Source: Roseburia sp. 831b (GTDB lineage: Bacteria > Bacillota > Clostridia > Lachnospirales > Lachnospiraceae). From it: a stretch of DNA of 64,000 nt. A model generated the notes under the pieces. It was not told the DNA's origin. It was given only the letters and a program-made list of their open reading frames with translations, and made no database searches. The stretch spans positions 2,137,501-2,201,500 of the forward strand of contig NZ_CP135162.1 in assembly GCF_001940165.2 (NCBI RefSeq), written 5' to 3'. Within the stretch, counting starts at the first letter, position 1. Every line of letters begins with the position of its first letter. This document shows positions 31,597 through 63,482 of this stretch, in pieces. Position numbers and translations under genes: made by a program.

Positions 31597-31806
31597 TAGA
31601 GCCAAAGTAGAGCCATTCGATAAAACAAATGCCGGAAACCCGCATAAATACAGGCTTTCGGCATTTTAATTCATTATTCAAACTCGCAAAGTTCTATTCG
31701 CTTTGTAGTTTTTCTCTGGTATTTCAGTTTTTAAACCGTTCGTTTTTGAACTGTTTCGTGTGGATTCGCTATGTTTTCAGCTAATTGTATTGTCATTTTA
31801 TTGTCA
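31597..31806. other. Att junction J1
   Basis: Left arm pair TAGAGCC at 31597-31603 and 31608-31614 (11 apart); hairpin GCCGAAAGCC-type at about 31631-31665; core TATTCAAACTC at 31675-31685; right arm pair TTGTCA at 31790-31795 and 31801-31806 (11 apart, 115 from the core). It marks the left boundary of E1 and the right end of an earlier element. No gene lies between 31557 and 31881. Confidence 0.7.
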
Positions 31807-31881
31807 CGTTTCATTTTTCCATCTTTACGGCATTTATTATATTATTCGTTTTCATTCTAATATTCATTAATATAACCAATA

Positions 31882-33048
31882 TTAAATAGCTAATAAATCA
31901 TCGAATATTTTTCTTCTATCTCCATTAGTCTTATTTGTAAACTCTACCGTTGTAAACCATTTTATTATATTCTCTTTTTTTACCTGAATATCATTATCAC
32001 AATGAAACATGCAATATCCTGCCAAGTACAAAATATAGTCCATTCTATCAACATAATCTTCTAAATTTTCATTATCAATAAATTCAAGTGCTTCGCATAA
32101 TCCCGTTAGCGATATTTTTACTATTTCATTTAAACGTTCAACTTCCAATGCTGTAAGTTGACTTTCTTTTGTATCTGACGGTATTGGTGCATAATTCAAG
32201 TTATGTTTTCCTCCATTAACAACTATCTCGTATGCTGGATTAAGGGACGAAATTGGATATGATACATTTGTAGTAAATGGTGAAAACATATCCTCAAAAC
32301 CATACTCCTGAATATACTCCTTAAAAGGATTAATATAATCATTATATATATCAAAATTGTGGATTTTCAATTTAGAAAATGACATTTGTAAAGCAGTAAC
32401 TTTGCTTCCCGCATTATTTAAAACTTCGAACCATTCAATTTGCTCATCTTCACTCAAATCATTTGCTTGATTAATGGTGTAATTATAATCCATCAGCTTA
32501 CTTCTAATATCAATACATATGGCATATAAATCATTAAATGTTTTTTGTTGCATCAAATACTCCTGGAGTCTCTTACGATCTTTATTTAATAACATACCAA
32601 CTGGTATTTGATTCTTTTTAATTGATGCCTTAATTATTTTAAAACAAGCACTTGCCACATCTAATACAACATTTCTAAAATCGTTACTATCTATATATGC
32701 TTTATAATTTGTTGTCAAACGTTGTTGTCCATCTACAACTGACTGATGAGCATTTAATATTTGATCTTTCGGTACTATTTCTCTATTAATAAAAGAAACC
32801 TGTGGTACAGATAATCCAACTTCTCCTATCTCATTGATAGAAATCGGGGCTACCGGTGCCTTTCCAAAAAGTTGATAATTTAATAAATCAACTGATTTTT
32901 GTAATGACCAACTAACATCTCTTTGATATAAAGGTAACGTCAGTTTATTCTGGTCAATTTTTTCGCACATCTGCAATACTGACATTTGAAAACTTTTTTT
33001 AGTCGGGTTAAATTGTACTGCTTCTAACAATTTTTTATTAATTTTCAT
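31882..33048 (-). CDS. DUF262 (GmrS/ParB-like) domain protein
   Basis: 388 residues with DUF262 motifs: LPLYQRDVSW near residue 38 and VDGQQRLTT at about 107, which form the NTP-handling centre in GmrSD-type restriction proteins. The C-terminal half is helical and lacks an HNH/DUF1524 nuclease. It may depend on a partner nuclease; the DEDD-exonuclease/zinc-ribbon gene upstream on the same strand, 253 bases away, is the obvious candidate. The low-GC composition fits transferred defence DNA. Confidence 0.8.
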   Translation of the reverse strand: MKINKKLLEAVQFNPTKKSFQMSVLQMCEKIDQNKLTLPLYQRDVSWSLQKSVDLLNYQLFGKAPVAPISINEIGEVGLSVPQVSFINREIVPKDQILNAHQSVVDGQQRLTTNYKAYIDSNDFRNVVLDVASACFKIIKASIKKNQIPVGMLLNKDRKRLQEYLMQQKTFNDLYAICIDIRSKLMDYNYTINQANDLSEDEQIEWFEVLNNAGSKVTALQMSFSKLKIHNFDIYNDYINPFKEYIQEYGFEDMFSPFTTNVSYPISSLNPAYEIVVNGGKHNLNYAPIPSDTKESQLTALEVERLNEIVKISLTGLCEALEFIDNENLEDYVDRMDYILYLAGYCMFHCDNDIQVKKENIIKWFTTVEFTNKTNGDRRKIFDDLLAI

Positions 33049-33301
33049 TAAACAAACACCTCTTTCTAAACTCCTAAAGACAGTATATTATACGACCCCA
33101 TAAAAATCAAGTTTTTATTCGCAGCATAATTATTTTTATTGCTTTTTCAATTATATTGCATAATTTTATTATAGCAGCTTTTAAAAGCTGCTATAATAAA
33201 ATCCATGTTAATTTTCATTTTCCTCAAAATACATCCTTTAAATTTATCAAATAAACAAAAGAGTTTAGCTATCGAGATTCAATCGATATCTTTCAACTTA
33301 T

Positions 33302-35038
33302 TCATATGGATGCGCTTGTTTTTTCTTTTTTACATTTTGGACACCAACATCTATCTACTAAATGATCTGCCCGAGTTGTCCATTTATAACCGCAATTAAC
33401 ACATATTACATCTACATCATCCTTTGATCCTGTGTAATTAATTGCAACTATTGTATGATTGCTCTTTCTTAGTATTTTCTCATAATAATTATCCGCACGA
33501 AGTTTTTTTCTATCTTGTTCAGATATGAAAGGATTTTTTTCTCTTGATCTATGCACTTTACACTTAGGACAATCCGGAATTTTTTTCATTAATGTAGAAT
33601 ATCTAACCGTCCATTCATGTTCACAATTTTTACATTGCAATTTAATAGGCGAGCTGATATTAGTGAAAGATACTAAAGTCAAATCCGAAGATGACAAGTA
33701 TTTCTGAATTTCACCAATTTTTTGTAATCTTTTTTCTTCTCTTTTTCCTTCAACCCAATTGGAGGAACCTGGCGTACCTATGTGTGCATCAACATAAGAT
33801 ATATGAAAAATTACTTTTTTAAGCAAATTAGTATCCCTGTTTTTTACCCACTCCATCTTTAAATGATAGATATCTCTTCCTTTAGCTTCATAAAAAAACT
33901 GTTCTTTATACGCCAATGAATCAGTAGGATTGGTTTTTATTTCTAATATTGCTTTTTCTGTAGAAAGATCACATAAGGCAAGAATATTATTCTTCGAATC
34001 AACCACTAATTCTTGCGATAATATGCGTTCTTTATTAAAAATATCATTTTGAATATAATCAACCAAAGGACCGATTTGTTCTTTAAGTTTTTTTGTGGTA
34101 GAATTTAATCTCTCTTCCATTTCCTTATCTTTTTTACGAAGTGCGGTAACGGTACCATCTAAATTAAAAACCATCGGAAGTGCCAGAATACCATTATCAA
34201 TTTTTCCAATGAAATCTAATTTTCTCTTGTTCTCTTCTAAAAAAGGCAACGAATTCTGTTTATCAACTTCTAACATGGAATTTATCAAATGTTCTATTGT
34301 CATTCCTGTAAAATTAGTTGGGAACTTCTCAATTCCTTTTGCGTCAATCTCGAAAGACTTAATAACATTACTTTGACATTCAATATATGGTCTTTCGCTG
34401 AGTATACGACTCAAATTCGGATGTGAAGATAATAAACTAGCTGGAATAATATAATCTTCATTCAACCTAAATACATTATCTCCACCATTCCCTTCTGTCA
34501 CAAGATAATAATAACCTCCCATTCTTTCAAACAACTTCCATTCTAATTTACAATCGTTTAAACTATTATGAACTTGTTTCACACCCTCAATATTAAAAAT
34601 TGAACAAAGATTATCCTTTGTAATATTACCATATGAATATTTTGATGAAATAATGTTTCTTTTAAAATTGTAAAATCGCAATTTATCAAATCCAAAAATT
34701 TGGTGTCTTTTCATATATTCTGAGAGAAATACCTTGTCAAAATTTCCACCTGCATAAATTAATATTGTTCTTTTCTCCAATTCAAACTCATCTACAATAT
34801 AATCAAACTCGTCTTGACTAAGTGCTGTTGCGCCAATCAAATCTTTATCAGTAATACCATTTATATGCGTTGTAACAATCTTTCGATTCAATTCCAAAGG
34901 CAAAAACTTACTGTATTCTTTTTTGTCATCTGGTTTATAAAATGAAATAGAAAGCAAATCATCTTTTTTTGACTTTAATCCATTTGTTTCCACATCAAAC
35001 ACCACATATTCTCTTGGGTCTATACTTACTTTTTCCAT
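33302..35038 (-). CDS. DEDD 3'-5' exonuclease with C-terminal zinc ribbons
   Basis: 578 residues. Residues 10-175 form a DnaQ-like exonuclease: VFDVETNG (ExoI), AGGNFDKVFLSEY (ExoII) and HNSLNDCKLEW (ExoIII). The middle (about 200-440) is unassigned. The C-terminus has two treble-clef-like ribbons: CKNCEHEW...CPKC (about 470-500) and CVNCGYKW...CPKC (about 545-572), similar to phage-type DUF723 fingers. I know no named family with this architecture. A nucleic-acid-degrading defence effector is plausible. Confidence 0.7.
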   Translation of the reverse strand: MEKVSIDPREYVVFDVETNGLKSKKDDLLSISFYKPDDKKEYSKFLPLELNRKIVTTHINGITDKDLIGATALSQDEFDYIVDEFELEKRTILIYAGGNFDKVFLSEYMKRHQIFGFDKLRFYNFKRNIISSKYSYGNITKDNLCSIFNIEGVKQVHNSLNDCKLEWKLFERMGGYYYLVTEGNGGDNVFRLNEDYIIPASLLSSHPNLSRILSERPYIECQSNVIKSFEIDAKGIEKFPTNFTGMTIEHLINSMLEVDKQNSLPFLEENKRKLDFIGKIDNGILALPMVFNLDGTVTALRKKDKEMEERLNSTTKKLKEQIGPLVDYIQNDIFNKERILSQELVVDSKNNILALCDLSTEKAILEIKTNPTDSLAYKEQFFYEAKGRDIYHLKMEWVKNRDTNLLKKVIFHISYVDAHIGTPGSSNWVEGKREEKRLQKIGEIQKYLSSSDLTLVSFTNISSPIKLQCKNCEHEWTVRYSTLMKKIPDCPKCKVHRSREKNPFISEQDRKKLRADNYYEKILRKSNHTIVAINYTGSKDDVDVICVNCGYKWTTRADHLVDRCWCPKCKKEKTSASI

Positions 35039-35108
35039 TAACGCCCCTCCTCAATGCCACATGAAATATCTCATTTACCAATAAATATATAATACCATAT
35101 ATATCAAG

Positions 35109-35666
35109 TTAGCAATCTCTCATAAATTGGTCTATTTTTTCTAAAACGTCTATGTTTGTTTGATATGAAAAATCATTTGCATTAATATCTATTGTATTAC
35201 CAAGAATTTTTTCACTTCTCGAATATTCAGTATATCTTCTAAAATCGTCAAAAACATCTAATGTTGTACTTAAATGTACGGGATGCCTATTCTCATTATG
35301 CATTCGATTTAAATATCGCTTATGTAAAATCTCAACATCTCCACGAAGAACAAGGGTAAGCACCTCATAGTTTTTTTCATATGCCATTTTGTGTAATGTT
35401 TCCAATTCTATAGTATGAAAGTTTGATTCCAAAATGAGATTCTTATCTAGTTTTTCAAACTCTGAAAAGATAAAGAACATTAATTCCATTGTTGCTCTTG
35501 ATAATTTCTTATTTTCTTCTCTATTTGAGAATCCAATTGTATCTCCTAACACTTCTTTGATTGAATCCTTAAAAAATACATTTGTATCATATCTTTTTGA
35601 AAGAATATTTGCAAAAGTAGATTTTCCTGTTGCCAAATCTCCCATAATAAGTAAAAGTTTCTTCAT
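35109..35666 (-). CDS. P-loop kinase-like AAA protein
   Basis: 185 residues: Walker A GDLATGKST at residues 9-17, KDSIKEVL, and LILESNF as the second acidic strand. This resembles zeta-toxin or small-molecule and tRNA-end kinases (AAA_33-like). MKKLLLIMGD at 35666 is the natural start; the longer frame lacks a ribosome site. No cognate antitoxin is recognised beside it. The 55-residue gene upstream is a weak candidate. Confidence 0.75.
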   Translation of the reverse strand: MKKLLLIMGDLATGKSTFANILSKRYDTNVFFKDSIKEVLGDTIGFSNREENKKLSRATMELMFFIFSEFEKLDKNLILESNFHTIELETLHKMAYEKNYEVLTLVLRGDVEILHKRYLNRMHNENRHPVHLSTTLDVFDDFRRYTEYSRSEKILGNTIDINANDFSYQTNIDVLEKIDQFMRDC

Positions 35667-35742
35667 AATATACCTCGCAAAATTCAAATTTGTCTTACAC
35701 ATTATATCATGAGAACCTATAAAAAAACTACCCCTAATACTT

Positions 35743-35910
35743 TCAATCTTTCTGCTTACTCAAAAACTCTTCCAATTCATCAATAGCTTCATACAGTAGC
35801 TTGGCAGTAAAAAACAAAGCTAAATCATTATAAACTACTTCTTCATCTGTGCTGACCATGTTCTGAATAATTGCTGCTGCACCTTTAATTTTATCAATAG
35901 ACTCTTGCAT
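35743..35910 (-). CDS. Small acidic helical protein (55 aa)
   Basis: ATG at 35908-35910 with GGGGAG eight bases upstream, stop TGA at 35743-35745. The product is strongly acidic and helical (for example EAIDELEEFLSKQKD at the C-terminus). No family is recognised. Size and place beside a kinase-like gene would suit an antitoxin or accessory factor, but that is a guess. Confidence 0.55.
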   Translation of the reverse strand: MQESIDKIKGAAAIIQNMVSTDEEVVYNDLALFFTAKLLYEAIDELEEFLSKQKD

Positions 35911-36250
35911 ATTTTACACTCCCCTCTCATCCAAGTACGTGTATGATACCTCTCATTTTTACTTTGTCAAGAAAATGTTTTTAGGCATTAGTACCCCAAA
36001 GCACCTCAAATTTTTCTGAGCAAACTCATTTACTGCAACTACAGGTACTGGATGCACTAAATCAAACACATGGGTTACAAGGTCTACAAGATTACTTGGA
36101 GTAAATCAATTTTCATGATGATAAAATTGCTCTCAATTGGATAAGTACCTTCAAGACTTCCCAATGTATAAATTATCTCAAAGAATTTTTATCTACTGAA
36201 AGGCATAATAATAGGCTGAAGCACACACAACTCCAGCCTATTACCCATTT
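35911..36250 (+). pseudogene. Gene-free gap with a degenerate coding relic
   Basis: On the plus strand, from about 36040, one frame reads VLDALNQTHGLQGLQDYLE, a stop, then INFHDDKIALNWIS and TSQCINYLKEFLSTE up to 36250. The consistent protein-like frame with a single stop suggests a decayed gene of unrecognised family. Confidence 0.35.
36209..36243 (-). terminator. Hairpin after the 36.2-kb gene
   Basis: TAATAGGCTG (36209-36218) pairs perfectly with CAGCCTATTA (36234-36243), 6 bases past the stop of the gene at 36249. The T-run is weak. Confidence 0.6.
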
Positions 36251-36716
36251 ATATTAACTCAGAGGATTTTTTGCTATCTCTCCGACGGATAGCACCTATA
36301 ACTATCCCAGCCACCTCATCCATGTCGATATTGTCATACATGGATGGATACATCTTTTGTAACCTTATTAAATCCAAAACATCACTCATATACAATGCAT
36401 ACAATGAGGACTCAGCAAGCAGGTCTAGGATGGCATACCCCAAAGTAACCTTGCGTCCCACCTTCTTAAGCATTCTTGTTGGGACTAAAGGTTTTTCCCA
36501 ACTAATATCCTTATAAAAAAGATACCTCCTACCTTCACTTGCAACTACAATGTAAGTAGTCGTTGCTTCAATAATATTTGCATTTTCAATGCATTGTCTG
36601 AAACCATGCTTAGTGACTCCAGTAATCCTTATTGAGCCATCATCAATGACTTGCATCCTCCAATTGAGTAAATCAGAGGTATCCTTTTTTATATATCCTT
36701 TCTCTTCTAAACTCAT
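36249..36716 (-). CDS. Unknown protein (155 aa), partner of the next gene
   Basis: No family is recognised. A soluble mixed alpha/beta protein with a basic C-terminus (GAIRRRDSKKSSELI). The central ATTTYIVVASEGRRYLFYKD looks like a beta-rich core. It overlaps the upstream gene by 4 bases (ATGA), so the pair is translationally coupled. Together with the D12-like methylase it forms a three-gene set in E1. Confidence 0.65.
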   Translation of the reverse strand: MSLEEKGYIKKDTSDLLNWRMQVIDDGSIRITGVTKHGFRQCIENANIIEATTTYIVVASEGRRYLFYKDISWEKPLVPTRMLKKVGRKVTLGYAILDLLAESSLYALYMSDVLDLIRLQKMYPSMYDNIDMDEVAGIVIGAIRRRDSKKSSELI

Positions 36717-37321
36717 ACGCTACCCCACCCTTCATGAAAACCATACGCATCAAAGAACTCGTCAATATGCGTAAGGCAACTATCAAGTCTACAAATATTT
36801 AATGGGTCATGAATACCACATAACTCCAAAATTGCTGGAGTGATAAGGTCATCATTATAGCCATCTGGGTCAAGCGTAATAAGAACATGAACCCTATGAA
36901 TCTGCTCCTGCATGGCTTTATAGAAAAGCATGACAGGGTTTTCTGTAATATCTACAATGCATCTGTAGATAAAATAATCCACATCACCAATAGGTGTGTG
37001 AATCATTGGCAGGGATTTTGTATCAGTAACTACCCCTAAAACAGATGATTTGCACTCATATTCATGAGTTCCATTTGGCAACTCAAGGGTCACGCCAAAC
37101 ACATTACCATCGTTTTCAATGGAATCAAATGCGACCAACATACGCATCCACTGGTCAATCGCCTCCACTGCCTGCCTATATGCGTTCCCAATCTGCTCAT
37201 CAAGGACTGCGTCTACGCCAGTATCATAGATAACCACCGAATTATCTACGAAATCCAGCACAGGCTGGGATAGTTTTGCAGTCTCCTGCAATAAAAAATT
37301 GTTTAAAATAGCATCATACAT
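36713..37321 (-). CDS. Unknown protein (202 aa)
   Basis: No family is recognised. It is acidic and soluble, with an N-terminal helical half and a segment HVLITLDPDGYNDDLITPAILE. AGGAGGT precedes the ATG. Coupled to the 155-residue gene downstream, it lies 276 bases after the methylase gene. That gap (37322-37597) holds only the methylase terminator and AT-rich spacer. Confidence 0.65.
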   Translation of the reverse strand: MYDAILNNFLLQETAKLSQPVLDFVDNSVVIYDTGVDAVLDEQIGNAYRQAVEAIDQWMRMLVAFDSIENDGNVFGVTLELPNGTHEYECKSSVLGVVTDTKSLPMIHTPIGDVDYFIYRCIVDITENPVMLFYKAMQEQIHRVHVLITLDPDGYNDDLITPAILELCGIHDPLNICRLDSCLTHIDEFFDAYGFHEGWGSV

Positions 37322-37586
37322 TGGAATCTACCTCCTGAGAAATATAATAATAGGGAAATAGAAAAGACTTCCTCTAGGAGAAAGCCTTAAGCATCATCCC
37401 TGATAATATAGGGATAACTCAATCAATATAAAATAACCTCAGTTACCAGTAGTAGCTAGCAACTAAGAGGTATATGCGTCAAGTTTACTATATATAAGAA
37501 AACAACTCAGCTATGAACTATTGCCACTTTTTTATATGACTGATTGCTATTCATATTGGGATTTTGTTAGAAATAAAAGAAAAAAT

Positions 37587-37612
37587 GGAGTTTGGGATTA
37601 AACCCAAACTCC
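37587..37612 (-). terminator. Terminator overlapping the methylase stop codon
   Basis: GGAGTTTGGG (37587-37596) pairs perfectly with CCCAAACTCC (37603-37612); on the minus strand ATTTTTTC follows. The stem includes the last codons of the methylase. Confidence 0.8.
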
Positions 37613-39463
37613 TGAAGCATAATTATTTACTATATCATTTTCGCGATACTCTTCCGCTAATTTAGCAACCTGACCATAACTCTTATGTTCTTTTCCATCA
37701 AACGGCAACTTCATAAATTCCCTAAATGGAATCGCAACAGTTTCTCCGCCATAAGGAATAACTCTTCTCACATCAAAATTGCAAATCATCATCTCAGCGG
37801 TTGTCTTGGTATTACGGAACAAAATCACAAAATAGTCATCTGCTAAATCACTTAACACATCTGAATTTGAAGTATAATAGGACTTTTTCCCCTCATATTG
37901 AACAGTAAAATCATTTACAAACCCAGCAAAGTAATCTCTATAACATTTTATAAGTGGCTGACCTACTTTTTGAGCACTTGTTCTTTTGCTATTCCCCTTT
38001 GAAGCTTTGTTTGTATGAAATTCACGGTACTGCATAGAAAATAACCATTTAAAATCAGAACCTCTAAGCTGGTCAAGCATTATTTTTTGTTGTTCATCTC
38101 CGAAGCCAGTTTCATACTCAGCAGTCAGAAAATATGGACTATCTTCGTATATAAAACCATCTGAAAAGGTTTGAACAAGTTGTGAAAAATCTGCACTCTG
38201 AACATGCGACTTTTTCAATGCCTTCATGAAACTTTTTCCGTCACCAAATTTGATATCTTTTGGCTTTAAAGTAAGCTCAGATATTATTTTATAGTTCACA
38301 CCTGAATACTTATCTAACAATTTTTGAAATGGAACTACCCCTGCCGAATTAGCCTTAAATACTTCTAACTTATTTTCTAAGTATGCATAATAATTTTTAG
38401 TATCCATATCTGTAACCTTATGGACATTTCCACTAAACCCATTAGCATCAATTGCATTAATAAAATACCACGCAACTCCTATGTCATAATACATCTGTAT
38501 ATCATTTTCCGACGGATTAGAAAAGTCGACTGCAACCTCATCCAAAGCACTAACATACATCTTATAGATTTCTTCATAGTTATTGCGAAGTCTTATCATT
38601 AGTTCATCATAAGCTACATCAGTAATTTTAGAATAAGCTCTAACTTTTCTCTTGTGCTCCATCCACATATCAGAAGTATAATGATTAGCTCCATTGCTTA
38701 AGTCCCTGCTTACAAAAGAATTGTGTAATTCAGCCAAGCGGGTTCTGACTTCTTTTTCATCATGGGACATACTATATAGAAAACAAGCAACTCCAATATC
38801 AAAATCGTTTACGACCATTTCGTTTGCGTCTACCGATGCAGCTACACATCCTGAGCCAGCAAAGACATCTATGAACGGCAATAGTTGTTCCTTCTTTGGA
38901 GCAACCCATCCCTTAGTAGCAGGGTCAAAAAATCTCAACGCAGCTTCTTGTCTACTAGCTTCATAAAATGCTGACTTGATAACCTTCGTCAAATATGGTT
39001 GCTTTTTCCCATTTCGTCTAATGTTAATTGCATGATATGAATCCCTATTAATTAACTTTCTATACCTTGGGCTAATCTCCCATTTATTTAATATGTTAGG
39101 CTTTATACCAAACTGTTTCAGAAAGTCAGCATCTCTAAGATTATATTCAGTTATACAATAGAAACAAATCTTCTTAAACAATACTGGATAATATGTTCTT
39201 TCTCCTGTGGCTTGGTCACATAAAATACCAATATTACCAGCTTTTGAAAAGCTATAAAAAGCATTAAACCAGCTAACAAGCTTTGTAGTATCACCAGACT
39301 GATTACAGAAATACATAAGAGCATTCATCAGCTCATCATAAAGTGGAAATGTCTGTGAAAAATTTATATTCCCAGCCAGAACTGCATCTATATATTTCTT
39401 CTCATCTCCACTTATTGCCTCAAATGGCTCATAAGTGAGTAACCTAAGCATCAATTCACGCAT
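37598..39463 (-). CDS. D12-like adenine-specific DNA methyltransferase, variant
   Basis: 621 residues. The AdoMet motif is FIDVFAGSGCVAASV (about residue 196), with MVVNDFDIG as the acidic strand. The catalytic motif IV reads EDSPYFL instead of the usual DPPY. The first 190 residues and a long helical insert (about 280-400) are unlike Dam-type enzymes of about 270 residues, so this is an enlarged, divergent member. It heads a possible three-gene set with the two unknown genes. No restriction enzyme is recognised, so a defence role is only suggested. Confidence 0.75.
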   Translation of the reverse strand: MRELMLRLLTYEPFEAISGDEKKYIDAVLAGNINFSQTFPLYDELMNALMYFCNQSGDTTKLVSWFNAFYSFSKAGNIGILCDQATGERTYYPVLFKKICFYCITEYNLRDADFLKQFGIKPNILNKWEISPRYRKLINRDSYHAINIRRNGKKQPYLTKVIKSAFYEASRQEAALRFFDPATKGWVAPKKEQLLPFIDVFAGSGCVAASVDANEMVVNDFDIGVACFLYSMSHDEKEVRTRLAELHNSFVSRDLSNGANHYTSDMWMEHKRKVRAYSKITDVAYDELMIRLRNNYEEIYKMYVSALDEVAVDFSNPSENDIQMYYDIGVAWYFINAIDANGFSGNVHKVTDMDTKNYYAYLENKLEVFKANSAGVVPFQKLLDKYSGVNYKIISELTLKPKDIKFGDGKSFMKALKKSHVQSADFSQLVQTFSDGFIYEDSPYFLTAEYETGFGDEQQKIMLDQLRGSDFKWLFSMQYREFHTNKASKGNSKRTSAQKVGQPLIKCYRDYFAGFVNDFTVQYEGKKSYYTSNSDVLSDLADDYFVILFRNTKTTAEMMICNFDVRRVIPYGGETVAIPFREFMKLPFDGKEHKSYGQVAKLAEEYRENDIVNNYASGVWV

Positions 39464-39662
39464 AAAAATAGACCTACCTTTTCTTAAGATAAGTCCATTG
39501 TACTATAAATATTAAAGACACGCTATTACAAAATAAGACCGAACTTAATTAGCTAAAAAATCACCCTAAATGCGTACAAATCCCGAACTGGCTTTATTGA
39601 ATAATAAAAATTGACTTTTGCCATCCCCAGATAGAGCGTTTCAAAAAAGCGTAATGGAAACA

Positions 39663-39870
39663 TCCCCATTTCGTCCCCAGCAGAAAAAGAAAAAGCCCAC
39701 AAAGCCCGTAAATTCAAGCTTTGTGAGCATATTTCCGCTATTCAAACTCGCAAAGTTTGGTTTGCTTTTGATTGTTTTAATACAGTCATCTATACTATCT
39801 TGTATTGATAATGTGTATCTTTTCCACTCATTATTTTTGTTTCACATATTTTTAGTACCAATCCAGTACC
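39663..39870. other. Att junction J2
   Basis: Left arm pair TCCCCA at 39663-39668 and 39674-39679 (11 apart, a third copy at 39624); hairpin CACAAAG/CTTTGTG at about 39700-39728; core TATTCAAACTC at 39739-39749; right arm pair TAGTACC (39853-39859) and CAGTACC (39864-39870), 114 from the core. It separates E1 from E2. No gene occurs in 39464-40016. Confidence 0.7.
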
Positions 39871-40016
39871 ATTGCTATATTGCCATTATTGAGTGTAGTT
39901 CTGGTGGCTTGCAGGTTTGTTTACTATTCAGAGAATAATCATCTGATGGTTTGCAAGTCCACCTATGAAAATTATAATCCGCAACCGCTAATTCTGCAGT
40001 AAGAAATTTTGTGGTA

Positions 40017-40417
40017 CTAATGGATAGCATCATCCTTTTCCATATCATTCATCAATTTATCAAAATCACTTTCATACAGCGAATCCTGTATAACTCGTAT
40101 TTTTCAAATTCGCTTTCTGCAAATTCTTTCGCAATAGCTGCTAACGAATAAAATTTATATTTGTATGTTTTTCCATTGTCGGCAACTTGTGCAAAATTTG
40201 CACAAGTTGAATTTTCATCTAATTCTCCCTCTTTAAAAACGTTGCTCAGATGTTTTGTAACCACACTTCTATCTACATCAAAAAGCTGTGAAATTGCCTT
40301 CTGCGTAAGCCATACATCGCCATTCTGAACCCTGACTTCAATTCCGTCTTCTCCTGCATCTCGTGTGAAAACCAAAAAATCAACAGTGCTATTTCTTATC
40401 TGTAATTCTTTGCTCAT
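40017..40417 (-). pseudogene. RhuM-family protein gene, deleted and frameshifted
   Basis: The N-terminus matches RhuM (GIEVRVQNGDVWLTQKAISQLF, KEGELDENSTCANF). After YKYKFYSLAAI it jumps to the family's C-terminus (KEFAESEFEKY), so about 150 residues are missing. A frameshift near 40080 then moves the true end (IQDSLYESDFDKLMNDM) into another frame ending at 40017. Relic. Confidence 0.75.
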
Positions 40418-40433
40418 AAAATTTTACCTTTCT

Positions 40434-40577
40434 CTATTCTCCTACTATCTCGTTGCTCAAGACTCTCATAATACTATCATCCACCTTTGTCTTTGCCAAA
40501 AGATTAATATTCCCATACCAGACTACTTCCTGATCAATAACAGCAAACCGCTCACATGATTCTTCTACTGTTTTCAT
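40434..40577 (-). pseudogene. C-terminal fragment of a PLD-like nuclease/helicase
   Basis: A 47-codon frame reads ERFAVIDQEVVWYGNINLLA then DSIMRV, the C-terminal phospholipase-D-like segment of helicase-nuclease fusions. The rest of the gene is absent. Confidence 0.5.
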
Positions 40578-40681
40578 ACAACAAATGACTGAGTGACTCT
40601 TCTCTTTCTACTGTAATTCTACCATGAAACCTATATAAAGACATTCCCCATTTTCACTTGCTTTAATATAAATTTTTCCTT

Positions 40682-40815
40682 TTATTCCGGAAACACAATC
40701 TCCACACAGAACTCATTTTCTTCTATCCGGGCGCTGATTTTCCCATCCATACGAAGTACCAGCTCTTTCGCGATTGATAAGCCGAGACCGCTGGAAGTCT
40801 TAGTAAATAAAAAGA
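40682..40815 (-). pseudogene. C-terminal fragment of a sensor histidine kinase
   Basis: About 43 codons read TSSGLGLSIAKELVLRMDGK and end FCVEIVFPE, the G-box and end of a HATPase domain. Everything upstream is missing. Relic. Confidence 0.7.
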
Positions 40816-40973
40816 TTGTTGATGCAAGGATCGTGTAGAGATACATGGTCCTTTTGTTGTGCAAATATCACAAAAAACAAACACAGATTTTGTAATGGGG
40901 TACGCGCTTAACCTTTGTAAAATCCACATTTCTGCTGTACCATATAATCAGAATATAAAAAAAGGAGATTGAT

Positions 40974-41984
40974 ATGGCACTAAACAGGGTTCGGATTGCG
41001 GATGTTGCAGATTCATTAGGCCTAAGTACAGCGACTGTCTCAAAGGTGATTCACGGCAAAACAGAAAAGATCTCGGATGAGACGGTAAAACGTGTCCAGC
41101 AGGAGCTTGAACGCTCAGGGTATATCCCAAATATGGCGGGCATTCTGCTTGCGAGAAATAATTCAAGAATCATCGGTGTGGTGGTGAATGACAATGAAAA
41201 GTATGAAGGCAGGGTCTTAGAGGATGGATTTGTGATGTCATCGCTTAATGCTCTTTCTCATGAGGTAAATGAAAAAGGATATTTTCTGATGATAAAAACG
41301 ACATCTGACATCAGTGAGATTCCGGTGTTTGCTTCCATGTGGAATATGGATGGGCTGATTCTGATGGGCTTTTGTGAAGCCGATTATGAGAAGCTCAGAA
41401 ACCAGATGAGGATATCGTTTGTTGTGTATGATGGTTATTTTGAAAAATGCTCCAAGGTGGTCAATCTGGTCATCAATCATTATGATGGCGGTTATCAGGC
41501 AGGAAAATATCTAAAGGAGCTGGGACATAAAAAAGCGTTGTGCATAGCGGATAATTTCATATGCATGGATAAAGAGCGCATCGAGGGCTTTCGCAAAGCC
41601 TTTGAACCGGGGAAAACATTAAGATGGGAAATACCAAAGACAGAAAAGGAAAGAATGTGCTTTTATGAGGATAAATATAGAGAGCTGGTAAAGGGCAATG
41701 TTACAGCTGTTTTTGCAGTGTCGGATTTTTATGCACTTGAATTTATGCGGTTTTTGCAGGGGGAGGGAGTACAAATTCCAAAGGATATCCAGATAATAGG
41801 TTTTGATGACAATCTGGCAAGCAGGGAAAGTAATCCTGCGCTTACAACGATTCATCAGGAGGCGCCTCTTAGGGCCAAAACTGCAATCAAGTGCCTTGAA
41901 GCAATGCGCGATGGCGCGGAATGTGAGACAGAAATTGTGTTGCCGGTTGAGTTAATAAAAAGAGAAAGTACGAGGAAATTATAA
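40974..41984 (+). CDS. LacI-family transcriptional regulator
   Basis: 336 residues: helix-turn-helix VRIADVADSLGLSTATVSKVIHG at the N-terminus, hinge region, then a periplasmic-binding-like sensor domain (GVVVNDNEKY to the IIGFDDNLASRE strand). AAGGAG precedes the ATG and a TATAAT lies at 40943-40948. Its TAA overlaps the ATG of the MATE gene by one base, so it probably controls its own operon in response to a compound exported by that MATE protein. Confidence 0.92.
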   Translation: MALNRVRIADVADSLGLSTATVSKVIHGKTEKISDETVKRVQQELERSGYIPNMAGILLARNNSRIIGVVVNDNEKYEGRVLEDGFVMSSLNALSHEVNEKGYFLMIKTTSDISEIPVFASMWNMDGLILMGFCEADYEKLRNQMRISFVVYDGYFEKCSKVVNLVINHYDGGYQAGKYLKELGHKKALCIADNFICMDKERIEGFRKAFEPGKTLRWEIPKTEKERMCFYEDKYRELVKGNVTAVFAVSDFYALEFMRFLQGEGVQIPKDIQIIGFDDNLASRESNPALTTIHQEAPLRAKTAIKCLEAMRDGAECETEIVLPVELIKRESTRKL

Positions 41985-43315: not shown

Positions 43316-43335
43316 TGTGGTTTTTTAGTAAAATT

Positions 43336-43351
43336 GAGCCGGTGGTGAGCT
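43336..43351. repeat. J3 left arm repeats
   Basis: GAGCC (43336-43340) and GAGCT (43347-43351) are 11 bases apart. Ignoring the intron, they lie about 65-100 bases before the J3 hairpin and core, as at the other junctions. No clear right arm pair is seen after J3. Confidence 0.4.
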
Positions 43352-43431
43352 GGAAATCATGTACCCTGACCGGATGCAGATATAACAATCGGGTAGGAGG
43401 TAAATAATTATTTTATTTACCGTCCTCCCAC

Positions 43432-43464: not shown

Positions 43465-43467
43465 TCT

Positions 43468-52672: not shown

Positions 52673-52765
52673 ATTCATCATCTCCTTCTTTTCATATGCA
52701 AAAGCAGATGCCTAAGCCGATATAACTTTTGCACCTGCCTCTGTCTCAATCTTCTTACCTGTTGC

Positions 52766-54044: not shown

Positions 54045-54254
54045 TAGTACCAAAATAGTACCACAAGGCAAAAAACAAGCTCGCAAATGCCCATTTTACT
54101 AGGCTTTGCGAGCTTTTGAAAATTATTCAAACTCCGCAACGGGTTGATGGAATGACCTTTTTCTCATGGTTTTTGTTAACATATTTGTTAATCTTTTATT
54201 CGTATTATCTGTATTATATATCTCCTATTACTCAAACAGTACTGTAACAGTACT
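54045..54254. other. Att junction J4
   Basis: Left arm pair TAGTACC at 54045-54051 and 54056-54062 (11 apart); hairpin with CTCGCAAA/TTTGCGAG at about 54090-54116; core TATTCAAACTC at 54124-54134; right arm pair ACAGTACT at 54236-54243 and 54247-54254 (11 apart, about 112 from the core). The boundary of E2 and E3. At 54174-54189 is a 16-base motif also found inverted at 62578. Confidence 0.75.
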
Positions 54255-55253
54255 TTAGTCTAAAGACAAAATAAATAATAACTCTTTACTTGAATTCTTG
54301 TTCTCCTTACCTGTAACCTGATAATTATGATTTATTTCTTTTACCTTTACATCTCCAAATGCAGACAACATTTCTTTAATAGCATCCGGTTCTGGTTTAA
54401 CTCTTGTATTTTGGCTTAATACTATATATCTAGTTTTATCTTTCAAAACCGAAATAAGAGTTTCCATATTAGTCAAAAAACTATCTTTACTTGTAAAATC
54501 CATGTGAGATAATTCTCGCCCAAACATAGCATCATACAATCCATAAAACGCATCATAATTATTCATAGTAGAAGGATATGGTGGATCCATATAAACAATA
54601 TCTACATTATCAATATTTTCTGCTAGTTCCATAACATCCATATTTTTTACACAGCATTGCTTACCCTCAAATATCGCATTATTGTATGAATCAAGATTAT
54701 CTATCATATGCTCGGTAAACGATTGATTATGGTACGCCCTACGTCTTTTATATTTTTTATAACTATATTCTTCATCCCGTAACAATTGAATTTGATTCCA
54801 CGGTACATTCATTCTAGAGTATGGAAGTTTTCTTATCATCGCACGACGCAAGAGCGCTAAAAACATATACCTTTCATATCCTTCAAGTTTATCAGCTATA
54901 GCTAATAATCTAGATAATTCATCTATTTCCTCCGGATAATACAATCGATCTGATAAAAACTCTATTCGCTTCCGTATACTTTTTAGACTATTACTGTCAA
55001 TGTCATACTCAAAAACATCACGTGATAGTTGTGTGCTATTATTCTCAATCAAGGCCTTCGCAATCACTACATCCGCAAATAGAATATCATTTGAAATGAC
55101 CGAATATCCTGCCTTTTTTAATGCATAAGAAACTGAACAGCCTCCGGCAAATATATCTAGTACAGTCCCTTCTTTTACCGGCATTTCACTTATTATCCAA
55201 TCAACTATTTTTTCTTTATTACCAATATAGTTAACCTTCGGATACTTAGGCAT
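54255..55253 (-). CDS. D12-class DNA N6-adenine methyltransferase (restriction-modification)
   Basis: 332 residues: NYIGNKEKIVDWI, motif I VLDIFAGGCSVSYAL (about residue 30), and motif IV YMDPPYPS (about 217), the D12/Dam group. It methylates adenine in the recognition site to protect host DNA. Last gene of the four-gene system; its start overlaps the 5mC methylase by 8 bases. Confidence 0.92.
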   Translation of the reverse strand: MPKYPKVNYIGNKEKIVDWIISEMPVKEGTVLDIFAGGCSVSYALKKAGYSVISNDILFADVVIAKALIENNSTQLSRDVFEYDIDSNSLKSIRKRIEFLSDRLYYPEEIDELSRLLAIADKLEGYERYMFLALLRRAMIRKLPYSRMNVPWNQIQLLRDEEYSYKKYKRRRAYHNQSFTEHMIDNLDSYNNAIFEGKQCCVKNMDVMELAENIDNVDIVYMDPPYPSTMNNYDAFYGLYDAMFGRELSHMDFTSKDSFLTNMETLISVLKDKTRYIVLSQNTRVKPEPDAIKEMLSAFGDVKVKEINHNYQVTGKENKNSSKELLFILSLD

Positions 55254-56241
55254 TTTTCAAAGTCTCCTTTACTTGTTCTGCAAGCAAATAAGCCAGCCTT
55301 GGAGGTACTGCATTGCCAATTTGTTGCTGTATTTGAATGGAACTACCCTCAAATATAAAACTATCATCAAATGTTTGTATCCTTGCCAGTTCTCGACAGG
55401 TCAAAGCTCTATTCTGATTATAATGAAATATTTTCCTCATATCCCCTGTCACACAAACAGAAGGCTTTTTACTATCATATCTAATATATTTCCTAACGTC
55501 TCCTGATTTCGGTCTTATATCTTCCGGTATGTCATTTCTATCTCCGCCATCTTTTACATAACTCATTTTTTCCAGCATCTGCTTTGTATGCTTCATTGCC
55601 ACGTGATTTGGTATTTCACTACTTTCTCCACTCGATAATCTCGGAAGATCTCCAATAACGTCTTTAATAGTCAAAATTTTGTCTGATTTCTGCGGATATT
55701 CAAATTCAGAATTCAAATCTTTTCTTACACCCACAATAACTATTCTTCTTCTCTCTTGTGCTATTTCATAATTCACAGTATTAAGTACATCCCATTTGAT
55801 GCAATATCCGCAATTTTCAAAGGCTCCTACTATTTCTTTTATTGTTTTTCCTTTTAAATGAGTGGCCATTGCAGCCACATTTTCCATAAGAAATACTTTG
55901 GGCTTAATTGTATTAACAAAACGTACAAATTCTTTAAACAACCTGTTTCTATCGTCATCAACAAATGTTCTACCTATATTCCCTGCAATTGAGAAGCCCT
56001 GGCAAGGAGGACCACCAATGATAACATCTATATCCTTGTTTCCAACAAGTTTTTTTATATCCTCATTAGATATATTTTTAATATCGTCAACCAATAATTT
56101 ATGTGATGGAAAATTTCGCTCATAAGTTTTTGCAAAATCCGGATTAAACTCAACCGCAAAGACATTTTCCATTCCTGCCTTATCAAAACCCGCAGATAAA
56201 CCTCCTGCACCACAAAATAAATCAATATAATTAAAAGCCAT
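55246..56241 (-). CDS. DNA (cytosine-5) methyltransferase
   Basis: 331 residues: motif I DLFCGAGGLSAGFDKAG, motif IV GGPPCQGFS with catalytic Cys, motif VI MENVAAM, motif VIII QERRRIVIVG, motif X QIGNAVPPRLAYLLA. Complete Dcm family set. One base overlaps the restriction gene. Its pairing with an adenine methylase suggests the two strands of an asymmetric site are modified by different enzymes. Confidence 0.95.
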   Translation of the reverse strand: MAFNYIDLFCGAGGLSAGFDKAGMENVFAVEFNPDFAKTYERNFPSHKLLVDDIKNISNEDIKKLVGNKDIDVIIGGPPCQGFSIAGNIGRTFVDDDRNRLFKEFVRFVNTIKPKVFLMENVAAMATHLKGKTIKEIVGAFENCGYCIKWDVLNTVNYEIAQERRRIVIVGVRKDLNSEFEYPQKSDKILTIKDVIGDLPRLSSGESSEIPNHVAMKHTKQMLEKMSYVKDGGDRNDIPEDIRPKSGDVRKYIRYDSKKPSVCVTGDMRKIFHYNQNRALTCRELARIQTFDDSFIFEGSSIQIQQQIGNAVPPRLAYLLAEQVKETLKNA

Positions 56242-57386
56242 TATTGTTCTCCGTTTTTTTCTAGGAATAATCTCCTATGATACTCTAGAAATCTCTTTCT
56301 TTCATCATTTAGCACTTTTTTATCTAAATGCATTTTTTCTAACTCAACACGAACTGTTGCATCAACATTTTTTCCTATTAAAATATTTCCTTGGTCATCA
56401 AACGAAATATCATGTTTGTCGAAATACTGATCTGTATTCGGCGATAGTAACAACGCGTTATTAACATCATAGGCTAATTCTTCTTTTCCTTCATCAACAC
56501 ATTCTTGTTTAGCCTTTATATGTGAATCGCGTAATCCTTTATAGGGTTTTTTCTCCAAATAGCAAATTGCATCACCATATAGTCTCACGCTTTCTTCAAT
56601 TAATTCTTGACGATGAATCCTCAGTTTAATCGGGTCGCAATGATACTTACCATCATACTCATCTTCAACAATATCCGGATCATCCGCAAAATATATTTTT
56701 TTAGAATCCGAACTTACTTTTAAATCGATAAACTTTTTCAAAAAAGAAATCAAATGGCCTTTTTGATTATATTTTCTATCAATAAAATCATCAGCTTCTG
56801 ACGCACGGAACTGACTATCTAATTCTTCTCTAGTCATATAACCTTTAGGATATAATTCAATATCCGTATACATCAATGCTTGTATGTCATTATCTGAAAG
56901 TTGCTTGTTTTTATCCAATGTACGAAGTAAAAAACCCATATGGTTTAATCGCCTGTTATCTACTGTCACGCCAGATGCAAATGACGAATTTTCATAAAAA
57001 ATTTTAGAAAAGATAATTTGTTTTTCTTCTTTATTTGTAGTGTTTATAAACTTTTTTGCAAGTGGATGGTATCCTTTAAGCATAGGATACACAAACCCCA
57101 ATTTCACAAACTGATTAATTCCTTTTCTCGCAGTTATTTTAGCATCCGCAATATCTCCTTTAAAATCAAATGCCGTTACCATCTTTTCTTGTAAATTATT
57201 ATATAATTCACTATCCTCAAATCCGTCATCCAAAGCTTCTAATTCAGATTTATTCGCATCTATATAATTAATTATAATTCTTAACGCATTAAAAAAATTT
57301 TGTCCGTAAATATCTGTCCATTGTGCAGTTATTTTCCAATAATCCTCATACTGCTCATGACTTCTTCTTTGCTTAGATTTTCCCAT
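56241..57386 (-). CDS. Restriction endonuclease with HNH nuclease domain
   Basis: 381 residues. The C-terminal part has an HNH_2-like nuclease: CYLEKKPYKG, RDSHIKAKQECVDEGKEEL, NNALLLSPNTDQYFDKHDISF (about residues 280-345). The first 270 residues are probably the target-recognition region. It lies between the C gene and the methylases, as restriction subunits do. The ATG at 57386 follows GGAGGG; a C-box lies 30 bases upstream, so its timing is set by the C protein. Confidence 0.85.
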   Translation of the reverse strand: MGKSKQRRSHEQYEDYWKITAQWTDIYGQNFFNALRIIINYIDANKSELEALDDGFEDSELYNNLQEKMVTAFDFKGDIADAKITARKGINQFVKLGFVYPMLKGYHPLAKKFINTTNKEEKQIIFSKIFYENSSFASGVTVDNRRLNHMGFLLRTLDKNKQLSDNDIQALMYTDIELYPKGYMTREELDSQFRASEADDFIDRKYNQKGHLISFLKKFIDLKVSSDSKKIYFADDPDIVEDEYDGKYHCDPIKLRIHRQELIEESVRLYGDAICYLEKKPYKGLRDSHIKAKQECVDEGKEELAYDVNNALLLSPNTDQYFDKHDISFDDQGNILIGKNVDATVRVELEKMHLDKKVLNDERKRFLEYHRRLFLEKNGEQ

Positions 57387-57415
57387 TATATGCCCTCCTA
57401 AATAATACACTCATT

Positions 57416-57428: not shown

Positions 57429-57433
57429 AACAA

Positions 57434-57780: not shown

Positions 57781-59016
57781 TTATCTATGCCGACCTCTTA
57801 TACGTTCCGGTTGTTCTAACTCCTTTAAAATATCCTCCGTCTTTACGTTCTTACTCTTCATCTCTAGATATTCCTCAAACTTGATTTCGAAATCAAACAG
57901 TTCTTCCCATCCCGGATCACGTCTTGCAACTGTACCATCTGGGTTTGATGCAGTTAATCGACTTACTAACGCTCCAAAGCCCTTCACATCTTCGTTGTTT
58001 ATTGCAATCCTCATATCACTAGTAAGATAAGGCTCGCACGCTTTGTAATAGCCAACCAGTTCTAACCGCTTATCTTCGATATCTTTCTTCGGAATTAAGC
58101 CAAGACGAATATTAATCTTTTCAAGCCACTCATTTGCTTTTGCCTTCGCAGATTCGATAATACTTGCAGCTTCTTTCTTTGCCTCTTCCAACTTTTCTTC
58201 TGCCTGCTTAATGAGACTCTGAAGATTACGAAGAGTTCCCCTAAGTTCTTTTTCCTGAGTTTCCAACTGCTGAATCTCCTGCTTACGCATTTCAGCCTTG
58301 TATTCAAGCACGGATAGGCTATCACGCTCCGGTGTCTTTATCTCACCATCAACAACCAAACCTCTGCGGACACATATCTTTTTAAAATGCGCTCGTTCCA
58401 TCTCCTTCCACTGCTTCGTAGCATTGTCTATACACTTCCCTGATGCATCCTTTTCATCCGGTCTTGGCGAATACTCACTACCGGTACGAACCGCAATCAA
58501 GTTGCGCATGGCTCTATCTAAAGAATTTCTCTTCTGTACCCCTGTCTTATATCCTTCCGCAACTGGAATATAATCAAAATGCATATGTGGAGAAGCCTCG
58601 TCCATATGGATATAAGCCCCTATCAGTTCCAATCCGGGATTTCTATCCTCAAACCCTTCAATATATTCAAGAAGACATTCCTTTGCTATATCACGCCACT
58701 CAGGATGTTCTATGAAGTCTTCCTGCTTTCCCCACTGAAACACATCCTCGTAAAACTCCTTCTCGCCATTCTTTGAATTGAGAATATGCGTCCGATAATC
58801 TTTGATCTGACGATCCTTACGTTTTTGTTTTGCATTATACTCACTAACTGCATCATCAAAAATTCGATGATATGCATGAGCTGTAGTTTCATCTTTCCAA
58901 ACAATATTTTGCTCTGTTCTGGAAGCATCCACATTGCTTGGCAATTTGCCCTCTCCGTAATTTCGGAGATTATGCTGTCTATTTCCTCTGCCCTGAGGCA
59001 TTGATATTGAACCCAT
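57781..59016 (-). CDS. MobV-family relaxase (Mob/Pre)
   Basis: 411 residues with the MobV nuclease motif AYIHMDEASPHMHFDYIPV (about residues 128-146), where the His residues bind metal, and an upstream HNLRNYGEGKLPSNVD region. Residues 230-300 are a coiled coil. It nicks its oriT for helper-driven transfer. AAAGGAG precedes the ATG. E2 and E3 therefore carry relaxases of different families. Confidence 0.9.
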   Translation of the reverse strand: MGSISMPQGRGNRQHNLRNYGEGKLPSNVDASRTEQNIVWKDETTAHAYHRIFDDAVSEYNAKQKRKDRQIKDYRTHILNSKNGEKEFYEDVFQWGKQEDFIEHPEWRDIAKECLLEYIEGFEDRNPGLELIGAYIHMDEASPHMHFDYIPVAEGYKTGVQKRNSLDRAMRNLIAVRTGSEYSPRPDEKDASGKCIDNATKQWKEMERAHFKKICVRRGLVVDGEIKTPERDSLSVLEYKAEMRKQEIQQLETQEKELRGTLRNLQSLIKQAEEKLEEAKKEAASIIESAKAKANEWLEKINIRLGLIPKKDIEDKRLELVGYYKACEPYLTSDMRIAINNEDVKGFGALVSRLTASNPDGTVARRDPGWEELFDFEIKFEEYLEMKSKNVKTEDILKELEQPERIRGRHR

Positions 59017-60904: not shown

Positions 60905-61208
60905 CTAATATTTCCAACATCGTTCTAATTGGTGTGAGTAGTTCCTCATCCATCTCATCAATCGAATTAATCCTCATAAGTTCCTCTTGAATGTGAATTA
61001 AATCATTTTGAAATTGAACCATCATCATAGGATTTCCTTTAGCAACAACTCTCTGATAAAGAGCGCTTTCTACCAGATAATCTTGTTTTGTTCTGGCACC
61101 GCAAAGGCGCACTCTGTCATCAAGTTCTAAAGCCTCCTCAGGGGACATTCGAAATGCAACGATTTTATTTCTCCATCTACCCTTTTTATCTTTTATCTTC
61201 TCCGACAT
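60876..61208 (-). CDS. Ribbon-helix-helix-like protein downstream of the integrase (E3 copy)
   Basis: 110 residues with RWRNKIVAFRMSPEEALELDDRV and KQDYLVESAL; a paralogue of the E2 protein at 51021. The ATG at 61208 follows GAGAGG and overlaps the integrase end by 23 bases. Probably a DNA-binding relaxosome or regulatory factor. Confidence 0.75.
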   Translation of the reverse strand: MSEKIKDKKGRWRNKIVAFRMSPEEALELDDRVRLCGARTKQDYLVESALYQRVVAKGNPMMMVQFQNDLIHIQEELMRINSIDEMDEELLTPIRTMLEILEAFKNEKES

Positions 61209-62289
61209 TGAAATAATCCTCTCTTTCATCAGATAGTTTCTGAGCCATCTTAATCTGCTCCCCTGGGAACATATGCGCATATCGATAAGTTACTCTGATA
61301 CTTTCATGTCCCATACGTTTTGCAATAGCCACCGCATCAAATCCCATGTTTATTAAAAGTGACACATGACTATGACGAAGATCATGAACACGAATACGCT
61401 TAACACCTGACAATTTACAACCACGATCCATCTCATGATGAAACTTTCCCTTCGACATATTGCTAAAAATACGCTGATTAGGTTTAACACCATAAAGCAT
61501 ACTAATGTATGTCTTTACTTCTTCTGCGACAAAATCTGGCATTGCAATAATGCGATTACTGTTTGCAGTTTTTGGTGTCGTGATTACATCCTTACCCTTT
61601 AACTTCTGATAGGACTTATTTACTTGAACCTCTAACTTTTCAAAGTCAAAATCCGAAGGAGTCAATGCTAAGCACTCACCCATACGAAGACCACACCAAT
61701 AAAGTATTTCAAAAGCTACATATGATTCCTGCTTGTCCGCGATCGCCTGCGAAAACGTAAGATACTCTTCTTTCGTCCAAAACTTCATCTCCACCTTTTC
61801 ATCCTGCTTAAAACTTCCCGCCTGATGGATAGGATTGATTCTTAAGCCATATAACTTACAGGCATGATTAAAAATACAACTTAGCTGCGCTTGGCATGAT
61901 TTCAAATATGTCTGTGCGAACTTACCATTTTTGCCGTTCTCCAATCCAAGCATTTCATTCTGCCACTTAATAATGTCTGTAGCTCTAATTTCATTAATCT
62001 TACGATTCTCAAAGTACGGCAATATCCTTGTCTTAATAATGGCTTCCTTTGTAATCCAAGTACTCATTTTTACCTGAGGTTTCTTATCTTTTTCATAGAG
62101 TTCATAAAACTCTCCAAAAGTCATATCAAGATCCCCTGACTCTTTTACACGAAAAGAAGCTTCCCATTCTACTGCCTCTTTTCTAGTGGCAAAGCCACGT
62201 TTCGTGGTACGTTTGGTTTTCCCCGTCCAATCCTGATAATATACTGAGGAATACCATGTACCATATTTTTTGTCCTTATAAACCGGCAT
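61186..62289 (-). CDS. int: Tyrosine recombinase (integrase) of E3
   Basis: 367 residues, homologous to the E2 integrase along its whole length. AP2-like arm-binding N-terminus (KYGTWYSSVYYQDWTGK), catalytic CGLRMGECLAL, RVHDLRHSHVSLL, GHESIRVTYRYAHMFPG with the nucleophile Tyr. Differences between the two arm-binding domains fit the different arm repeats (ACAGTACT here, TAGTACC in E2) with the same core. Confidence 0.93.
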   Translation of the reverse strand: MPVYKDKKYGTWYSSVYYQDWTGKTKRTTKRGFATRKEAVEWEASFRVKESGDLDMTFGEFYELYEKDKKPQVKMSTWITKEAIIKTRILPYFENRKINEIRATDIIKWQNEMLGLENGKNGKFAQTYLKSCQAQLSCIFNHACKLYGLRINPIHQAGSFKQDEKVEMKFWTKEEYLTFSQAIADKQESYVAFEILYWCGLRMGECLALTPSDFDFEKLEVQVNKSYQKLKGKDVITTPKTANSNRIIAMPDFVAEEVKTYISMLYGVKPNQRIFSNMSKGKFHHEMDRGCKLSGVKRIRVHDLRHSHVSLLINMGFDAVAIAKRMGHESIRVTYRYAHMFPGEQIKMAQKLSDEREDYFNVGEDKR

Positions 62290-62485: not shown

Positions 62486-62514
62486 ATGCTCTTCCTCCTT
62501 TCATTGAATAATTG

Positions 62515-62610: not shown

Positions 62611-62689
62611 TTCTATTATTCATATGGTACACTTATAGACGTAATCTGCAGAAAGTTTACAAATTAAATTTAAAAAAGAGGTTTTTGCT

Positions 62690-63265
62690 ATGAATATAGG
62701 AAAGAAAATCCAGATACTTAGAAAGTTCAGAGGTTTAACTCAAGCAGAACTCGGCATAGCCCTTGGCTTTAAGCCTGAAGCAGCTGCCAACAGAATTACC
62801 CAATACGAAACAAGTTATCGTGTTCCTAAAGAAGATGCTCTTACACAAATGGCAGAAGTCCTTAAGGTTAGCAAATACAACTTCATCGAAACAGATGATA
62901 CCGCCTGCGACTTCATACTTACACTCTTTTGGCTTGATCCACTTGAAGAAGGCGAACCTCTTATAGTTCCTTGGCTTCTTCATGGTCAAGAAGATGATAG
63001 TCGAGGAATGTCTATCCTACCTCGTTGGGCAGCTTTAACCACTGCTTTTTATAACGAAAACTCTGAAATGCCAAGACCATTTATTGAATTACGAGATGAT
63101 TCTATAAATAGTTATCTGGCTGAATGGAATAGAATCCGAACATATCTGTCGGAAGAAAAGATTAGCAAAGATGAATATTTAGATTGGAAATTTAACTGGT
63201 ATGAGCGAAAGTGTGATCCCGATAGAAGAATCAAATATACCATGTCTGAAATGTTCCAAAAATAG
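62690..63265 (+). CDS. XRE-family regulator of E3 excision
   Basis: 191 residues: helix-turn-helix KIQILRKFRGLTQAELGIAL with RITQYETSYRVPKED, and a C-terminal domain ending EEKISKDEYLDWKFNWYERK shared with the E2 regulator. It is divergent from xis-int and probably represses them. The first arm repeat of J5 begins 4 bases past its stop codon. Confidence 0.9.
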   Translation: MNIGKKIQILRKFRGLTQAELGIALGFKPEAAANRITQYETSYRVPKEDALTQMAEVLKVSKYNFIETDDTACDFILTLFWLDPLEEGEPLIVPWLLHGQEDDSRGMSILPRWAALTTAFYNENSEMPRPFIELRDDSINSYLAEWNRIRTYLSEEKISKDEYLDWKFNWYERKCDPDRRIKYTMSEMFQK

Positions 63266-63268
63266 CAG

Positions 63269-63482
63269 ACAGTACTGCAACAGTACTTTGAGAAAAAGTA
63301 AAAGCCGTGAAACCCTTTATTTAAAAGGTCTCACGGCTATTTGCTCGCTTACTCAAACTCTTGGGCGGAGAGATTTATTTGGTTGTTTTCTGATACATAT
63401 TTGTGTATTTCATTTTTCATATTTATCATATTTTGCATTTTTGTGTACCTCGTTCAAAATTTTTAGAGCCAAAATGGAGCCA
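63269..63482. other. Att junction J5
   Basis: Left arm pair ACAGTACT at 63269-63276 and 63280-63287 (11 apart); hairpin AGCCGTGA/TCACGGCT (63303-63338); core TACTCAAACTC at 63350-63360 (one mismatch to the others); right arm pair TAGAGCC (63464-63470) and TGGAGCC (63475-63481), 114 from the core. End of E3, start of the next element, E4. Confidence 0.75.

Follow-up and report, generated by a model that had tools for sequence, protein, structure and literature searches.

Integrative elements that use the 3' end of guaA have been published, among them the streptococcal ICE_SmiB6_guaA, ATE-1 and GIsul2, and according to the passages on streptococcal ICEs the repeats there comprise nothing but the exact 3' end of the gene (PMC4701971, PMC5704250, PMC9376610). 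The passages on guaA elements in these papers mention neither arm pairs nor swapped terminators. Tandem accretion of ICEs, IMEs and CIMEs has also been described; where a review treats functional elements in tandem, it states that their integrases share specificity and are generally distantly related (PMC5704250). Both guaA hot spots and tandem accretion are already in print.

We analysed a 64,000-nucleotide stretch of the Roseburia sp. 831b genome (the window). The target is the same gene and the same end as for ICE_SmiB6_guaA, ATE-1 and GIsul2, as far as the passages on those elements describe them, in another host and with another core (that of GIsul2 is GAGTGGGA). As in the published accounts of accretion, elements are stacked at one att site together with decayed members; unlike in the accounts given in PMC5704250, four armed junctions, a further junction (J6) and a solo core combine one core, distinct tags and a fixed geometry. 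We are highly confident that the whole is a tandem (accretion) array of integrative mobilizable elements in the guaA 3' end, including the mechanism proposed below. The cores and the hairpins beside them are as follows.

31631..31662, minus strand: terminator-like hairpin of J1 (folding)
31675..31685, minus strand: core of J1, guaA EFE-stop (core scan)
39695..39728, minus strand: terminator-like hairpin of J2 (folding)
39739..39749, minus strand: core of J2, left end of E2 (core scan; L195 comparison)
45307..45342, minus strand: terminator-like hairpin of J3
45352..45362, minus strand: solo core of J3, without arm pairs (core scan)
54077..54115, minus strand: terminator-like hairpin of J4 (folding)
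54124..54134, minus strand: core of J4, right end of E2 and left end of E3 (core scan; L195 comparison)
63303..63338, minus strand: terminator-like hairpin of J5 (folding)
63350..63360, minus strand: core of J5, left end of E4 (core scan)

Read on the plus strand, the core is TATTCAAACTC at 31675, 39739, 45352 and 54124, and TACTCAAACTC at 63350. J6 (G000:C1:2216329) lies outside the window, 15.5 kb to the right of J5, and joins guaA. The minus strand to its right encodes ...TSKPPGTIEFE-stop, the C-terminus of GMP synthase (NCBIfam NF000848, 514 bits against a cut-off of 400), and the core, TAYTCAAACTC, is the reverse complement of the last guaA codons, GAG TTT GAR TA; in guaA sense it reads GAGTTTGA(A/G)TA. 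The core thus coincides with the guaA 3' end, which insertion restores. The initial annotation had known of no published description of this core; the guaA 3' end is a published hot spot. A tRNA was considered as target and rejected, as the window contains none.

The window holds 10 matches to the core with at most one mismatch, compared with a mean of 3.83 and a largest value of 7 in 100 shuffles. At J1, J2, J4 and J5, a pair of repeats spaced 11 bp apart, alike at 7 or 8 of 8 bases, stands on each side of the core. Our rescan thereby confirmed the five cores and the layout and distances that had been claimed for these four junctions. In guaA sense, an armed junction consists of the left pair of one element, the core about 121 bases on, a hairpin and then, some 61 bases past GAGTTTGAR, the right pair belonging to the next element. 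The arm pairs in the window are as follows.

31597..31615, minus strand: E0 right-end arm pair (sense TGGCTCTA twice, 11 bp apart)
31788..31806, minus strand: E1 left-end arm pair (TGACAATA twice)
39661..39679, minus strand: E1 right-end arm pair (TGGGGACG and TGGGGATG)
39853..39871, minus strand: E2 left-end arm pair (TGGTACTG and TGGTACTA)
54045..54063, minus strand: E2 right-end arm pair (TGGTACTA twice)
54236..54254, minus strand: E3 left-end arm pair (AGTACTGT twice)
63269..63287, minus strand: E3 right-end arm pair (AGTACTGT twice)
63464..63482, minus strand: E4 left-end arm pair (TGGCTCCA and TGGCTCTA)

J3 was rejected as a full junction: it keeps core and hairpin, with no adjoining arm pair (at best 4 and 2 of 8 on the two sides) and none by eye beyond the intron, in keeping with its omission from the earlier layout. 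Across the genome there are nine exact cores, against four for the pattern read backwards: J1 to J6 and three strays. These strays are what one would expect if the array were a chance resemblance around a frequent 11-mer. Yet none of the three has arm pairs (their best pairs match at only 2 to 5 of 8 bases), and placing mock cores at every third position on both strands of the window gave both pairs at just 33 of 42,514, with the real neighbourhoods counted in; we consider chance vanishingly improbable.

E2 runs from J2 to J4, E3 from J4 to J5, and E4 from J5 to J6, where its right end abuts guaA. The ends of all three follow the order arm pair, core, hairpin, arm pair. Their principal genes in the window, with the segment E1, are listed below.

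31675..39749, no strand: E1, segment without integrase and with unlike arms, J1 to J2
40077..45534, no strand: 5.46-kb segment inside E2, with LacI regulator, MATE gene, group II intron and J3
43468..45193, minus strand: group II intron parts (RVT_1 and GIIM protein, two Rfam D1D4 matches)
48075..49844, minus strand: E2 relaxase (Pfam Relaxase; NCBIfam MobP match below cut-off)
51476..52681, minus strand: E2 integrase (Pfam)
53350..53898, plus strand: E2 HTH regulator (matches near Pfam cut-off)
54255..57410, minus strand: E3 cargo, two type II DNA methyltransferases and an HNH restriction enzyme
57781..59016, minus strand: E3 relaxase (Pfam Mob_Pre; NCBIfam MobV match below cut-off)
61186..62289, minus strand: E3 integrase (Pfam)
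62690..63265, plus strand: E3 HTH regulator (match just under Pfam cut-off)

Each of E2, E3 and E4 has its own integrase. Those of E2 and E3 carry the arm-binding, SAM-like and catalytic domains of Tn916/Tn1549-type enzymes (Pfam Arm-DNA-bind_4, Phage_int_SAM_3 and Phage_integrase), and that of E4 is 47% identical to that of E3. The best match of a model of the whole E3 integrase was Tn1549 Int (E 4.9e-13). A model of the integrase N-domain aligned to AP2 domains and to the N-domain of Tn916 Int, with scores that were middling only, which makes an AP2-like fold of this domain a candidate; the earlier assignment to the arm-core-arm att sites of AP2-type tyrosine recombinases is supported to that extent. 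Among solved structures we found none related by sequence to the arm-binding domain, the one weak match being unrelated (E 0.028). We regard the 11-bp repeat pairs as predicted arm sites of Tn916/Tn1549-like integrases which, unlike those of Tn916 and Tn1549, are site-specific for guaA. Relaxase domains scored above the Pfam cut-off in E2 and E3, and NCBIfam relaxase matches fell below cut-off in E2, E3 and E4. On their gene content, we classify these three as predicted integrative mobilizable elements, the scan for conjugation genes having covered part of the ORFs. They occupy successive att sites, as tandem accretion requires, which bears out the suggestion of several elements stacked at one site.

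The segments lie end to end and all point the same way, as they would in a single large composite element with internal repeats. Against this stand the three integrases and three relaxase-like proteins, the tags, which pair up per segment for E2, E3 and E4, and a second E2, which stands by itself at guaA in a different genus of the family (locus L195, genome G364) and is bounded by cores. We think a composite element very improbable. At L195, 8,601 bp of E2 are present at 99.0% identity, ending at the J4 core beside guaA, and the left end is represented by 338 bp at 90%, starting at J2. An E2 bounded by the J2 and J4 cores is, as judged from this alignment, a natural counterpart of excision mapping. 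The 5.46-kb segment inside E2 stands in place of about 414 bp of the L195 copy. Its intron probably begins with GTGCG just after the J3 hairpin (window 43468-45300); group IIC introns favour terminators. In the left part of the L195 copy, a hairpin and a GATACC-like arm pair without a core are visible by eye (L195:12240-12320), likely a remnant of another element.

The cargo of the array is varied. E3 carries a restriction-modification system. In E4, a reverse transcriptase (best PADLOC model RT_II-A) adjoins an NDT_II-A-like protein (L001:3499-5485; partly window 63499-63966), and the two are probably a type II-A retron; a response regulator lies beside genes judged from their translations to be ABC-transporter-like.

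The left side of the array is decayed. Over 100 bp, the left side of J1 is 93% identical to the right end of E4, indicating that an E4-like element, E0, once ended there. Searching leftward for the other end of E0, we found no core flanked by both pairs and no exact core beside a single perfect pair. The only blastn match, to L011/L038/L059, lay in cargo, and tblastn gave no clear chromosomal flank. No integrase was found in E1, whose genes include GmrSD_N, a DEDDh exonuclease and a weak AAA_18 match. E1 lacks an integrase, as would a CIME that retains attL and attR, but its ends carry different tags: in guaA sense, TGACAATA at one and TGGGGA(C/T)G at the other. We interpret E1 as a putative chimera. 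It also encodes a 621-aa protein without Pfam match that has a 37% relative in L175; the GmrSD_N, DEDDh exonuclease and 621-aa genes (31882-39463) are a possible defence island.

The initial annotation had included a hairpin in the layout. It is present, and we read it as a replacement terminator of guaA rather than as a recombination signal. Among 135 distinct right ends, the mean folding energy was -20.8, against -9.9 for shuffled sequences; 79 left ends carried no strong hairpin (mean -7.6). At L195, the hairpin past the left core of E2 (GGCAGATA...TATCTGCC) resembles the one directly after the unoccupied guaA of L164, which suggests that the element replaces the native terminator with one that it carries. 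Folding eight unoccupied guaA ends showed this likeness in L164 only, and folding was weak at three of the eight (L021, L022 and L151). The hairpin beside each core is accordingly a candidate terminator supplied by the element.

We propose that a circular element would recombine its own core with that of guaA. Insertion would displace the guaA terminator and supply a new one, while the core would restore the last codons and stop; later elements could use the core again, giving rise to stacking. The N-domain of the integrase would bind both repeats, whose 11-bp spacing corresponds to one helical turn, and bridge to the core, which would fix the spacing and leave the DNA between free to vary. 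An arm tag of its own would probably let the integrase of each element tell its own ends from those of its neighbours, and so keep it off neighbours with the same core.

The earlier suggestion to look in related genomes for the core with pairs at these distances proved fruitful, as the geometry recurs at many related loci, mostly of Lachnospiraceae. We scanned 74 guaA ends from L007-L134, some of them one locus twice, over 45-100 bases past the stop: 63 carry a pair alike at 7 or 8 of 8 bases, which in 62 cases begins at 57-61 (43 distinct sequences). A same-genus sample that includes this genome comprises 23 loci, 20 of them assessable, with a pair in 18; the end at L019, missed by the pattern, has a pair visible in the same locus as L052. 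A further sample of 60 genomes, taken in order of GuaA similarity, gave 57 assessable ends, 25 with a pair. By GuaA ending, these are 23 of 35 for TIE (one doubtful) and 2 of 22 for TVE; the pair is doubtful at L148, an occupied family end. In the L154-L193 family sample, the latter group has TVE(L/M)E endings. Elements of the same integrase family, with the tag GGTTCTA, also lie by an apparent EF-Tu gene end; at L118:900-1320, the EF-Tu-like 3' end was named by eye from its translation, and 11-bp pairs of GGTTCTA lie at 1459-1477 and 8644-8662. Like pairs on both sides were found for 3 of 50 integrases without a guaA tag.

The repeat, in guaA sense, is mostly TGxxxxxA. The labelled set contains 24 tag spellings, about 18 when single-base variants are merged, and core and geometry are common to all. 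Tags were alike at both ends in 27 of 33 elements (mean 8.07 and largest value 16 in 1000 shuffles) and in 12 of 12 held-out elements, with many related elements among them; L218|14342, whose only tag is its neighbour's, had been dropped from the held-out set. The remaining 6 of 33 have unlike tags at the scanned ends, perhaps through unseen remnants. With identical junctions collapsed, like tags met at none of 58 distinct junctions (13 guaA-first, 31 and 14 integrase-first). The 0 of 13 in the guaA-first set is unremarkable by itself (permutation mean 0.94, P(0) 0.36). The result is stronger for elements tagged GGCTCTA, which had like neighbours in 0 of 25 cases (P 0.0019 on the assumption of independence, 0.08 when only distinct neighbour tags are counted). 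Like neighbours could also be lost through homologous recombination or through collapse in assembly.

We tentatively suggest, as a possibility that falls short of our main conclusion, that the arm repeats are element-specific addresses, in which a few arm-domain residues would read the element's own tag, unlike tags could stack, and like tags would exclude or remove each other. A residue screen linked position W+5 of the arm-binding domain with tag base x6 (z 16.6; next best 5.8). The code that we propose would be Arg/His at W+5 for x6 = C and Tyr for T, and Arg/His at W+1 for x2x3 = GC or GG. Of 30 held-out integrases, 28 and 30 obeyed rules that had been fixed in advance. For the tree and the residue screen, identical proteins were collapsed to 93, two more being left out of the screen for their different spacing. 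L102 and L055 were dropped (their tag came only from a junction that is perhaps another element's), as was L085, with its arm domain cut off; L046 was relabelled to its right-end tag, and the E3 tag was shifted manually into register. Such changes work in favour of the rules, which had each held in 79 of 81 cases beforehand, the exceptions being L102 and L046 for rule 3 and L055 and L058 for rule 4.

Should tag diversity be drift only, the integrases would cross-react and the tags would insulate nothing. This account, doubtful to us although far from negligible, agrees with the unremarkable 0 of 13 in the guaA-first set and with the whole-domain distances: the catalytic domain and the N-domain show equal correlations with tag distance (r 0.436 each; both partial correlations 0.21), and we rejected the idea that these distances single out the N-domain. 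When the arm-binding domain was left out of the tree, about 2.9 of the 3 supported independent pairs agreed in direction for rule 3 (7 tag changes, 8 residue changes) and 2.0 of 3 for rule 4, too few pairs for either to reach significance. What drift accounts for poorly is the prominence of the W+5/x6 link in the screen, the success of the preset rules in held-out integrases, and the absence of like tags from all 58 junctions. In the open-licence literature we found no description of a tag series with common core and geometry, of tag agreement at both ends or of junctions free of like tags, or of an arm-domain residue that tracks a tag base.

The array explains how elements with restriction, probable retron and transport cargo share the end of an essential gene and leave it unbroken. 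With it comes a simple rule for finding element ends in related genomes, together with a base-to-residue code for the arm-binding domains of integrases that can be put to the test. Insulation by tags, if real, would also account for the usually distant relationship between tandem integrases at a single site.
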